Origin: Methanovulcanius yangii
GTDB lineage: Archaea; Halobacteriota; Methanomicrobia; Methanomicrobiales; Methanomicrobiaceae
DNA: 64,000 nt
Direction: 5' to 3'
Assembly (NCBI RefSeq): GCF_018687785.1
Contig: NZ_LTBL01000001.1
Span: 1,045,780 to 1,109,779 of the forward strand
Every line of letters begins with the position of its first letter. Within the stretch, counting starts at the first letter, position 1. A program made the translations under genes and the position numbers. Positions 26,054 through 37,425 of the stretch are shown one piece after another. The notes under the pieces were generated by a model. The model searched no databases. It was not told the DNA's origin and worked only from the letters and a program-made list of their open reading frames with translations.

Positions 26054-26217
26054 CTTTTCTTTTTTGTTAACCATTTCAATCTAAATTCATTCTCAATCTA
26101 ATATGAGTTAAATCGACTGAATTTCCATCCTTCCACCGATAATCCTCGTAAATCGGCTGTTAAACACTAGCGTTTAAATAATTCAACATCGAACTCTTTT
26201 TGTTAGAGGTATTGATT
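26054..26217 (+). promoter_or_regulatory. Promoter region of the second fdhAB pair with an inverted repeat
   Basis: 164 AT-rich bases. The perfect inverted repeat TTAAAC-ACTAGC-GTTTAA (26160-26177) overlaps the best TATA candidate CGTTTAAATAATTC. Its centre is about 50 bases before the fdhA ATG, so a bound regulator would block the transcription factors. The first copy has no matching palindrome, which would let the two operons be controlled differently. An AACGTTTAA-like half lies upstream of fdhC. Confidence 0.5.
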
Positions 26218-28313
26218 ATGGACATGAAATACGTTCAGACAACCTGCCCCTACTGTGGGACAGGATGTTCGTTCAACCTCGTGGTCAAAGACGGCAAGGT
26301 CGTAGATACAGCACCGTATCACCGCTCCCCCGTCAATGAAGGCAAGATGTGTCCGAAAGGAACCTATGCCCACGAGTTTGTGAACAGAGAAGACCGGCTT
26401 ACCGTGCCGCTCATCAAGAAGGACGGCAAGTTTGTGGAAGCCACCTGGGATGAAGCCTACAAGCTCATCGCAGAGAAATTCAAGGGCTACAAACCCGACG
26501 AGATCGCAGTCCTTTCCTCGGCACGTACCTCCAATGAGGAGAACTACGCGCTGATGAAGCTCGCACGCGGTGCATTCAAGACCCGTCACATCGACCACTG
26601 TGCCCGTCTCTGCCACGCATCGACGGTCGCAGGTCTTGCAGCATCGTTCGGATCCGGTGCAATGACCAACTCCATTGGCGACATCGCCGAGTCCAAGTGT
26701 GTCTTTATTCTCGGGTCCAACACCTTCGAGCAGCACCCCCTCATCGGACGCCGCGTCATGCAGGCAAAGATGAACGGTGCAAAGCTCATCTACGCTGACC
26801 CCCGATACACCTGTACCGGAAAGCAGGCAGACCTCTACATGCAGTTCCGCTCAGGATCGGATGTTGCCATCCTCAACGGAATGATGCAGGAGATCATCAA
26901 AAACGGATGGGAAGACAAGGAATTCATCGAGTCCAGGGTCAAGGGCTTCGAGGAACTCAAGGCAGAGGTCATGCAGGAGAAGTACTCTCTCGAGAACGTC
27001 GCCAAAATCTCCGGCATTCCCCCCGAACAGCTGAAGCAGGCAACCGAATGGTTTGCAAAGGCTGAGTCCGCCTGTATCCTCTACTCGATGGGTATCACCC
27101 AGCACACCGTCGGTGTCGACAATGTGAAGTCCGTCGCAAACATCCAGATGCTCACCGGAAACCTCGGCAAGGCCGGCGCCGGTGTCAACGCACTGCGTGG
27201 ACAGAACAATGTGCAGGGAGCCTGCGACATGGGAGCACTCCCGGTCGTCTTTACCGGCTACCAGAAGGTCATCGACCCCGCCGCACACCAGAAGTTCGCA
27301 GACGGATGGGGATTCCCCGACGGTATCTGTGAAGCCGCGAACGGATACGAAGTCACCACCATGATGGACGTCCTCACCGACAAGCCCGGTGAACTCAAGG
27401 CAATGTACATCATGGGCGAGAACCCGCTCATCTCCGATCCGGACCTCACCCACGTCGAGCACGCATTCGAGGCAATCGAGTTCCTCGTCGTCCAGGATAT
27501 CTTCCTGACCGAGACCGCACAGTATGCAGACGTTGTCCTGCCCGCCACCTGCTACGCAGAGAAGGACGGCACCCAGACCTCCACCGAACGCCGCGTTCAG
27601 ATGTGGAGAAAGGCACAGGACCCGCCCGGACAGGCAAAGGTCGACTGGAAGATCATCGCAGAAGTCGGTGCCGCAATGGGCTACCCCGAGCAGTTCGCAT
27701 GGGAGTCCGCAGAGGACGTCTTCAACGAGATGGCAGGGCTCACCCCGTCCTACCACGGCATGACCTACGAGCGGCTCAACAAGCCCGAGGCACTCCACTG
27801 GCCCTGCCCCACCGAGGAGCACCCCGGCACACCGATCCTGCACATCGGCAAGTTCTCCCACCCCGACGGCATGGGTGTCATGCACGTCTGTGAGTACAAG
27901 CCGCCCGCAGAAGTCCCCGACGAGGAGTACCCGTACATCCTCACCACCGGACGCTGTATCTGGCACTGGCACACCGGTTCCATGACCCGCCGGTCCGCGA
28001 CCCTCGACCACGAGGTCCCGACCGGATGGATCGAGATCAACACCGAGGATGCAGCAGCCCTCGGCATCAAGGACAAGGAAGTCGTCAAGGCAATCACCCG
28101 TCGTGGAGAAGTCGAAGTGCCTGCAAAGGTCACCGACGAGATCATGAAGGGCGTCATGTTCATGCCGTTCCACTTCGTCGAGTGTGCAGCAAACAGGCTG
28201 ACCAACAACGCACTGGACCCAATCGCTAAGATTCCGGAGTTCAAGGCCTGTTCAATCAAAGTTGAAAAGATCCAGGAGGCCTGAAAATGGTAGCAAAAGG
28301 CGATATGGTATAC
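26197..28313 (+). repeat. Near-identical fdhA repeat, second member
   Basis: Second member of the direct repeat starting at 22809. Same limits: from CTTTTTGTTAGAGG in the leader to about codon 9 of fdhB. Silent differences cluster in the first 350 bases and again after about position 27435, flanking a fully identical centre, the profile expected of a gene-conversion tract. Confidence 0.92.
26218..28284 (+). CDS. fdhA: Formate dehydrogenase alpha subunit, copy 2
   Basis: 688 residues, the same protein as copy 1: [4Fe-4S] cysteines 10, 13, 17 and 45, active-site Cys132 instead of Sec, and both molybdopterin-binding domains. Start ATG 26218 with GAGGT upstream. Only silent base changes separate the two genes. 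The different upstream region and different FdhB partner suggest that the second pair serves another condition or electron acceptor while sharing the same catalytic subunit. Confidence 0.97.
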   Translation: MDMKYVQTTCPYCGTGCSFNLVVKDGKVVDTAPYHRSPVNEGKMCPKGTYAHEFVNREDRLTVPLIKKDGKFVEATWDEAYKLIAEKFKGYKPDEIAVLSSARTSNEENYALMKLARGAFKTRHIDHCARLCHASTVAGLAASFGSGAMTNSIGDIAESKCVFILGSNTFEQHPLIGRRVMQAKMNGAKLIYADPRYTCTGKQADLYMQFRSGSDVAILNGMMQEIIKNGWEDKEFIESRVKGFEELKAEVMQEKYSLENVAKISGIPPEQLKQATEWFAKAESACILYSMGITQHTVGVDNVKSVANIQMLTGNLGKAGAGVNALRGQNNVQGACDMGALPVVFTGYQKVIDPAAHQKFADGWGFPDGICEAANGYEVTTMMDVLTDKPGELKAMYIMGENPLISDPDLTHVEHAFEAIEFLVVQDIFLTETAQYADVVLPATCYAEKDGTQTSTERRVQMWRKAQDPPGQAKVDWKIIAEVGAAMGYPEQFAWESAEDVFNEMAGLTPSYHGMTYERLNKPEALHWPCPTEEHPGTPILHIGKFSHPDGMGVMHVCEYKPPAEVPDEEYPYILTTGRCIWHWHTGSMTRRSATLDHEVPTGWIEINTEDAAALGIKDKEVVKAITRRGEVEVPAKVTDEIMKGVMFMPFHFVECAANRLTNNALDPIAKIPEFKACSIKVEKIQEA

Positions 28314-33584: not shown

Positions 33585-35052
<1,468 letters not shown>

Positions 35053-35119
35053 TGTTTTTGAAGTAGCTTCATGCAAGATTCTTGCATTCAGTGGTCTTCG
35101 GCACACATGCCTTATCGGC

Positions 35120-35130
35120 TTTATATTTGG
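35120..35130 (-). promoter_or_regulatory. Proximal rRNA promoter (TATA box)
   Basis: Reading minus, GGTTCCAAATATAAAG joins a BRE-like purine/C segment to a TATA box. Transcription would begin about 25 bases on, near 35100, leaving a leader of about 50 bases before 16S. It is the closest of four promoter-like sites and is not part of the repeats upstream. Confidence 0.6.
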
Positions 35131-35242
35131 AACCATTTCTGCTCATCATCGTGATGATGGCATTCCATGGTAAAAGGAATTAGCGGTTACTAAACAGATT
35201 TCCGCATTGCCAGTGCCAACGTCAGAACCGACACTCCCCACC

Positions 35243-35680
35243 GGAGCGGTTTCGGTTCCCCATCAAAACATCGGATTACAATATTAGTTTCGAGAGGTAA
35301 TAAACCCATCGAAACCGCTTGCATCCGACGCCGGAAGCCTTCCTGCAGAGCGGCGATTGCCACCCTGCAGAGGTATTTCCTTTGTAGTGCTAATGGCGTA
35401 TTTCGGGCACCGTTTTTTCAACGGAGCATTTTGCACCCGTTTTGTGCCCGAACCATTCGACCTAACAAGGTTGTCTTCAGAGGATATAAACCCTTCGAAT
35501 CGTTTTGTTCGGCCGACGTCCGCACCCGGAGAACCGGACAGACATCCGGTTTCGCGGTTGCGGTTCGCCACGATTGCAATGTTCGTTCTTGGCGCGGATA
35601 CGCACAAACGGAGCGCGTTGCGCCCGTTTTCGTCCCGAACCATTCGACCTAACAACATGGTATCCGGAGTGATATAAAGG
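35243..35680 (-). repeat. Three tandem repeats, each with an rRNA promoter
   Basis: Three imperfect units start near 35243, 35423 and 35610 (each with GGAGC on the plus strand), 180-187 bases apart. Reading minus, each has a TATA-like box: TTTATATC at about 35672-35679, GTTTATATCC at about 35482-35491 and the weaker GTTTATTACC at about 35296-35305. About 24 bases after the first two boxes comes the same segment TTAGGTCGAATGGTTCGGG. The 36-base blocks 35433-35468 and 35620-35655 differ at only a few positions. No protein gene is supported here; the open frames are short and unrelated. Confidence 0.7.
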
Positions 35681-35851
35681 TTGCTTTCCAGAGCCCCGAT
35701 ATGCCCCCTTCAGACGAAAAAAAGGCGGAAGCCACCATGCAGATAACCACAATTTACTCATTTTTCTCACCTACGCGCAGATCAGGCACAAAAAAATCAG
35801 CGCGGGTCATTCCCAAAGCGCATGGAAAACAAAGAAAATATTGGAAATATC

Positions 35852-36142
35852 TTACCTGCGCCGGGACGCAAGTTCATCCAGGACGTCCTCAAGCCTTACA
35901 TCCCCGGCGCGCAGGGAAAGAAGCAGATGGAAGATGAGATCCGCAGACTCCTCCACCTTACGCCCATAATCATCGTTCTTCATCGCAAGAATGAACTCCG
36001 TCGCCTCCTCACCTACCTTCTCAAGGGACTTGTCAATGCCCTTTCGGTGGGTCAGTATACTCACCACATACGACCCCTCGGGCATCTCTTCCATTCGCTC
36101 TCCGATGACATCCCACAACTCTTCCAGTACTTCACTTCTCAT
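35852..36142 (-). CDS. hisE: Phosphoribosyl-ATP pyrophosphatase HisE
   Basis: 96-residue enzyme of histidine synthesis that removes pyrophosphate from phosphoribosyl-ATP. The MazG-like helical motif is clear: KVGEEATEFILAMKN and KVEESADLIFHLLLSL supply the Glu/Asp metal ligands. SD GAGGTGC precedes ATG 36142. It overlaps the end of the nusA gene by 11 bases, so both form one operon. No other his genes besides the HisA-like paralogue are in the window. Confidence 0.95.
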   Translation of the reverse strand: MRSEVLEELWDVIGERMEEMPEGSYVVSILTHRKGIDKSLEKVGEEATEFILAMKNDDYGRKVEESADLIFHLLLSLRAGDVRLEDVLDELASRRR

Positions 36143-36581
36143 ATCGCACCTCTTCGACAGTCACATCCCTGATTTCCAGACCATAATATCGCTGGCAGAG
36201 GAGCCGGGCCTTTTCGATATTTGCCCCGCCTTTGCCTATGGCCACTCCCATATCTCCTCTCTTTTTCAGAACGATCTCAACGATACGGCTTTCTCCGTCG
36301 CATTCAACCCTTGCAATCTCAGCAGGCCACATGGCATGTGAGATCAGTTCCATGGGAGATATGCCCTCCTCGACCATTTCAATGCGTTTCCCCAGAGATT
36401 TCTGCAGCCGCTTGATATTTTCACCGTTTTTTCCGATTGCAATACCCATCTCACCCTTAGCTATGAGATAGATTATTCGTTCGAACGCATCATCAATGAT
36501 GCAGTCAACGGGCGAAATTCGGGTCAATTGCTGAAGTTCTTCAGTATATCGCCGTTCCTTAATGTCTGGAGCAGGGTGCAT
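36132..36581 (-). CDS. nusA: NusA-like KH-domain transcription factor
   Basis: Archaeal NusA-like protein with two KH RNA-binding domains; 149 residues from ATG 36581. The GxxG loops are GMAIGKNGENI-like (MGIAIGKNGENIKRLQ) and MGVAIGKGGANIEKA, one in each domain. An ATG at 36644 would add 21 residues; the inner start fits the family's compact length and has a CCGGA-type site nearby. In most archaea the gene sits near rpoA and ribosomal protein genes, so the pairing with hisE is less usual. Divergent from the DUF432-like gene. Confidence 0.85.
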   Translation of the reverse strand: MHPAPDIKERRYTEELQQLTRISPVDCIIDDAFERIIYLIAKGEMGIAIGKNGENIKRLQKSLGKRIEMVEEGISPMELISHAMWPAEIARVECDGESRIVEIVLKKRGDMGVAIGKGGANIEKARLLCQRYYGLEIRDVTVEEVRYEK

Positions 36582-36708
36582 TCCGGATTCGACATAGTGT
36601 TGTTTAGCATCAGTAATAACCCCTTGGCACCCTAGCGGACACATTCCAAACGATATGGCCGCCGCTTCCGGCGAACACTTTATATCTTTCATTTTTAATC
36701 TTAATGCA

Positions 36709-37425
36709 ATGTACGGCAAAAGGGACATTCCCTTCCGGTATGAAGACGAAACAGTCCTCCTCGAGGCATCCGAGGAGAAAGGTCTCCTCAAATACAGGCG
36801 GGTAACCAGCATGAAGGACTCATTTGAGAAGACCATCATCACCTCATCGGATGCCCGCATTGTCGTCAATCCTGTAGAACCGGTTAATCTACCAAAAAAG
36901 GTAACAAATTATCTGGAAATAGAATTCCCCCCGCTGGTGATGGCCCCCAATGATCAGCGGACCATCCATCTGACCTTCCCCCTGGAGATAGGAGTCATCG
37001 TCTTTGGCAACAAGGATATGAAGGCCATAGACATCTTTTCCTACTGCCCTCAGAAATATTCGCTCTACGGTCCGGCGGGAGGGGGGCTGATTACCAAATG
37101 GCACCGGAGTGACCTTTATCAGGATCTTCCCGTCACCGATCGTCTCTGTGAAGGGATCCTCAATCTGCGCATCCAGAACAAGACCAGCGAATGGCAGAAC
37201 GTCTCCCGGGTCGTCCTGGATGGATATGCAATGAAGATCTATTTCAGCAGCGAAGCAGTCAGAATGTTCGCACGGATGAAACTGATGACCTCCACCATTG
37301 CAGAAACCGAATTCCAGAGCGTTACCTCCCACCGCGATGTCCTCCAGAAATCGATCGAGCTGTATCACACGCTCAATATTCCCAAACTGAGCAGGGTATT
37401 TACCATGGAATGGGGGTTTGACTAA
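36709..37425 (+). CDS. DUF432-like archaeal protein
   Basis: 238-residue soluble archaeal protein that I place in DUF432, a family often encoded beside MscS channels; function unknown. Strand-rich, with blocks RDIPFRYEDETVLLE, VVNPVEPVNLPKK and HLTFPLEIGVIVFG. ATG 36709 lies about 27 bases after the TATA box CTTTATAT (36678-36685), and there is no ribosome-binding site, so the mRNA is probably leaderless; this supports ATG 36709 over the frame opening at 36655. The stop shares one base with the start of mscS. Confidence 0.8.
   Translation: MYGKRDIPFRYEDETVLLEASEEKGLLKYRRVTSMKDSFEKTIITSSDARIVVNPVEPVNLPKKVTNYLEIEFPPLVMAPNDQRTIHLTFPLEIGVIVFGNKDMKAIDIFSYCPQKYSLYGPAGGGLITKWHRSDLYQDLPVTDRLCEGILNLRIQNKTSEWQNVSRVVLDGYAMKIYFSSEAVRMFARMKLMTSTIAETEFQSVTSHRDVLQKSIELYHTLNIPKLSRVFTMEWGFD

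Follow-up and report, generated by a model that had tools for sequence, protein, structure and literature searches.

Three candidate promoters in series ahead of an rRNA operon of Methanovulcanius yangii, and related arrays across the Methanomicrobiales

Introduction

Transcription of rRNA operons from tandem promoters is best documented in the haloarchaea. Five rRNA promoters are described for Halobacterium cutirubrum, and three transcription starts have been mapped in Haloferax volcanii, 185, 293 and 444 nt ahead of the 16S gene (PMC4983044). Archaeal pre-16S rRNA is processed from a long leader-trailer helix that carries a bulge-helix-bulge (BHB) motif, and BHB processing is reported to require the stem (PMC7714728). 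A literature search on rRNA promoters in Methanomicrobiales or Methanoculleus, which missed most subscription journals, found no relevant report.

Here we have analysed the region upstream of 16S in a 64,000-nucleotide stretch of the genome of Methanovulcanius yangii (the window), a member of the family Methanomicrobiaceae in the order Methanomicrobiales. As in the haloarchaea, several promoters appear to lie in series ahead of 16S, and their predicted distances from it, approximately 225, 411 and 599 nt, are comparable. Unlike the haloarchaeal promoters, those predicted here have a different start-site motif, CAACATTGTTA, and two of them also have a specific downstream block. We conclude that the arrangement is genuine and of a known kind, and that it would be expected to work like the haloarchaeal tandem rRNA promoters. 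It extends this arrangement to a whole methanogen order.

Results and discussion

Three promoter-like units precede the 16S gene

The rRNA operon is encoded on the minus strand in the order 16S (35052-33585; Rfam RF01959), tRNA-Ala (33518-33443), 23S (33289-30362) and 5S (30303-30183). Its upstream neighbours on the same strand (35852-36869) are genes for a phosphoribosyl-ATP pyrophosphohydrolase-like (PRA-PH) protein and a NusA-like KH-domain protein, and a comparable PRA-PH/NusA-like gene order is also seen in two further genomes (G002 and G004). A possible terminator hairpin of these genes lies directly ahead of the first promoter (35724-35736, minus strand); one such hairpin was found where about one is expected by chance.

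Between these genes and 16S, three TATA boxes are found on the minus strand with first bases at 35678 (P1), 35490 (P2) and 35304 (P3), giving spacings of 188 and 186 nt. Together with the preceding BRE positions they read AACC-TTTATATC for P1 (35671-35682), AGGG-TTTATATC for P2 (35483-35494) and TGGG-TTTATTAC for P3 (35297-35308). P1 and P2 carry an identical start-site motif, TTGTTAGGTCGAATGG, at 35640-35655 and 35453-35468, respectively, which is common to the distal promoters of Methanogenium. The first-pass annotation had described three imperfect repeats of about 185 bases, each with a TATA-like box; the three boxes and their spacing are indeed present, but the third shares only a core motif of approximately 45 nt with the others rather than a repeat unit.

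A motif derived from a TATA-seeded alignment of 265 sites consists of A-A-n-G before TTTATAT, followed by CAACATTGTT at positions +18 to +27 counted from the box. When the window was scored with a model built from 135 sites, all from outside the host family, P2 ranked first (26.0), P1 second (18.6) and P3 eighth (5.2) of 127,896 window positions. Simulated sequence (400 kb) reached 8.7 at best. This exceeds the score of P3, whose TATA box, TTTATTAC, is weak and non-consensus, so the case for P3 rests on its conserved position, addressed below. Further sites resembling the rRNA promoter motif occur in the window at 26173 (plus strand), 48332 (minus strand) and 61519 (plus strand), the first of them just preceding a formate dehydrogenase alpha gene (26200-28284).

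Other readings of the region were also considered. The three open reading frames that span it gave no Pfam family match, on which ground a coding explanation was rejected, and the signal for bacterial-type promoters was not above chance. A plasmid search returned no matches, and an Rfam scan of the leader up to E = 1 found no RNA family besides 16S.

These features very probably represent an array of three independent archaeal promoters of the TBP/TFB type, all driving the one rRNA operon, and the tandem rRNA promoters proposed at first pass are supported by the three in their position and geometry and in their conservation throughout the order. Each would comprise a BRE/TATA element (AAnG-TTTATAT) followed by the start-site motif CAACATTGTTA about 23 nt past the first base of the box, and would be recognised by TBP and TFB, with predicted starts near 35651, 35463 and 35277. 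Promoters in series would most likely increase RNA polymerase loading and may permit control by growth conditions. The boxes, motif, duplication, conservation and processing stem are read directly from the DNA, and each promoter would presumably be active, their output additive and perhaps regulated.

The predicted starts all precede the 16S processing stem

In the leader, positions 35220-35183 (minus strand) supply the 5' strand of a 16S processing stem and pair with its 3' strand in the trailer, at 33567-33530. The helix has 15 pairs on one side and 16 on the other of an internal loop of seven bases, which is bulge-helix-bulge in shape. The pairing holds in 23 distinct relatives, among which both strands show changes (24 distinct stems), and the 5' strand, ATGCGGAAATYTGTTTAGTAACCGC, is nearly invariant, forming the most conserved stretch of the leader in the order. 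The structure is like the described archaeal pre-16S stem in being a long leader-trailer helix with a BHB-shaped internal loop (PMC7714728). It differs in the 4-bp central helix: the loop pairs GCGG with ACGU between AAA bulges, and three of the four central pairs form here, with one G-A mismatch, whereas by eye all four form in several relatives.

Since P1, P2 and P3 are all ahead of the 5' strand of the stem, every transcript that they initiate could form the stem, and cleavage would yield the same pre-16S in each case. This bears on a fourth promoter beside 16S, which the first-pass annotation had placed with a start near 35100 and which would also feed the operon. A TATA-like box, AATATAAA, is indeed present at 35117-35126 on the minus strand, but it scores at background, lacks the start-site motif and is not conserved in relatives. 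It is also downstream of the 5' strand of the stem, so that its transcript would begin inside the stem loop, without positions 35220-35183, and could not form the stem. We therefore consider a fourth rRNA promoter at this position very improbable, and retain the three upstream ones.

Two minor features of the leader were noted. Just ahead of the stem, at approximately 35262-35217 on the minus strand, is a hairpin of the form GATGGGGAACCGA...TCGGTTCTGACG, flanked by GATGG and CTGA, whose arms co-vary in relatives, suggesting a conserved structure in the leader, possibly a kink-turn. The leader segment CCGCTAATTCCTTT (35186-35173) is complementary over 14 nt to AAAGGAATTGGCGG in central 16S (34190-34203), which is perhaps incidental. 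This complement, together with the conserved block, had suggested a U3-like element in the leader that pairs with the 16S pseudoknot; that reading was rejected because the conserved block is explained by its pairing with the 16S trailer.

P1 and P2 probably stem from an old duplication of a distal promoter

A repeat search identified a repeat of 63 nt with 79% identity and a spacing of 187 between P1 and P2. Local alignment of 35678-35607 with 35490-35420 (both minus strand) scored 84, whereas 1000 shuffles averaged 18.7 and reached at most 30. The duplicated block is thus an imperfect one of 72 nt, and contains 22 identical bases (TTGTTAGGTCGAATGGTTCGGG) in place of the 36-base block at the start site that had been reported at first pass. 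The sequence TTAGGTCGAATGG occurs twice in the window, where 0.12 copies are expected allowing up to one mismatch, and four times in the genome, each copy lying in a promoter unit of one or other rRNA operon. Across the whole 187-nt unit, P1 and P2 are 57% identical, barely above the shuffle maximum of 53%, which indicates that the duplicated spacer has largely diverged. The likeness of P3 to P2 is confined to the core (score 58, shuffle maximum 46.5).

It could be argued that the repeat is an artefact of assembly or local recombination, since repeats near rRNA operons are, as a matter of general knowledge, a problem for assembly. The genome has two rRNA operons, however, with upstream regions that are identical across 35053-35682 and unrelated further out, so the repeat is present in both operons between unrelated flanks, and a separate genome of the genus contains both diverged copies. 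An artefact is accordingly a negligible prospect.

In the separate genome, of a second species of the genus (G001), the same three boxes are present, with spacings of 188 and 187. Between the two species, P1 is 72% identical to P1, P2 75% to P2 and P3 93% to P3, while P1 and P2 are only 57 and 60% identical within the respective genomes. As each promoter is closer to its counterpart in the other species than P1 is to P2 within a genome, the duplication is older than the species split. The amplification of one unit that had been described as under way therefore holds for P1 and P2 only, and is not in progress.

Comparison within the family identifies the units. Two promoters are usual. The distal one has TTAGGTCGAATG or TAAGGC at the start, the proximal one precedes the leader element by about 97 nt, and the proximal box lies at -96 to -101 from that element in the operons of relatives. 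It can be seen that P3 occupies this place, and it is the best conserved and most positionally fixed of the three, so the third box is not the decayed one it had been taken for. We conclude that P3 corresponds to the family's proximal promoter, and that P1 and P2 correspond to two old copies of its distal promoter. In Methanogenium marinum, one of the three operons compared (L135) also has a third, distal box.

The preservation of these cores also bears on whether a single promoter, P2 or P1, is used, with the others being relics of duplication that have persisted through chance or inter-operon homogenisation. Such a history would fit the non-consensus TATA box of P3 and the divergence of most of the P1/P2 spacer to background. 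It is at odds with the strong scores of both P1 and P2, with the preservation of all three cores in the second species while the spacers diverge, and with the conservation of the proximal and distal positions across the family and of tandem sets across the order. We regard use of one promoter alone as quite improbable and favour three promoters.

A different reading of the duplication is that the main role of the TTAGGTCGAATGG block is in regulation or early elongation, for example as a site for a repressor or activator, or as a 5'-end tag on the RNA. In that case the repeat would serve to duplicate this element rather than a promoter. The block is nearly invariant in the distal promoters of Methanogenium and the host genus (TAAGGC in other genera), sits at and just past the predicted start, and is missing from P3 and found nowhere else in the genome, all of which would suit such an element. 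Yet a full TATA box always precedes it at a constant distance, and conserved structure was not found after it. That the block is chiefly an element of this kind is unlikely, though the element and promoter readings do not exclude each other, and we continue to treat P1 and P2 as promoters. A conserved hairpin just past the P1 and P2 starts was also considered and rejected: the individual folds resemble one another, yet P1 has an energy z-score of 0.2 and the alignment gave no consensus structure.

The number of predicted promoters varies across the order

The rRNA upstream regions of the order were gathered by means of the conserved leader, and units were counted with the model retrained on all sites, including the operon of the window itself. 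Among 113 non-redundant regions, five have one unit, 46 have two, 21 three, ten four, five five, 21 six and five seven; Methanoculleus and Methanoregulaceae weigh heavily in this set and some genomes contribute several operons, so that the counts are of operons and not of independent origins. At least two such promoters are therefore present in 108 of the 113 operon upstream regions of Methanomicrobiales (range two to seven), while reversed sequence used as a control gave 14 false matches in 113 kb. The common motif marks the predicted rRNA start site throughout the order.

The number of units can differ even between the operons of a single genome, and we conclude that birth and loss of promoter units, which had been read from the third box of the window, is real at the level of the order. 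Examples are three and five units in G083 (L039 and L149), five and four in G079 (L035 and L148) and three and four in G110 (L057 and L175). Natural variants of two to seven units, some of them within one genome, would allow the value of promoter number to be tested.

In favour of the promoter array, identity between the operons of one genome stops, in several genomes, close to the most distal TATA box, at a distance of a few to about 15 nt. In the host it ends at P1 (-475/-471), and elsewhere the same pattern is seen at -278/-265, -280/-276, -265/-263, -748/-743 and -750/-744; in some operon pairs identity continues for about 100 nt past this box.

Methanoculleus operons mostly have five or six promoters. 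Also in favour of the array, cores compared between these units are 59% alike, more than the spacers, which are 50% alike against a shuffled baseline of 46%. The first two intervals are constant to 1 nt despite the divergence of the spacers. In the six-promoter loci (L019 and L034-L054) the first of these intervals is 145-146 nt and the second 144-145 nt in 17 loci, and spacer identity averages 75-81%.

A broader proposal is that the Methanomicrobiales as an order use rRNA promoter arrays, two to seven units long, that evolve by gain and loss of units under constrained spacing, and that the conserved element downstream of the distal type (TTAGGTCGAATG or TAAGGC), duplicated in this genus, regulates rRNA synthesis. 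Taken as a whole, this extension is possible but doubtful.

Outside the order, haloarchaea-like upstream regions are not recognised by this motif model. Outgroups that we assume to be Methanocella-like and Methanosarcina-like (L217-L228) also have at least two TATA boxes upstream of 16S, but with weaker matches to the start-site motif and fewer units than Methanoculleus or Methanofollis. One of these outgroup loci (L226, in G320) contains a near-exact promoter duplicate at -500 and -369, 131 nt apart, which looks like the recent birth of a unit.
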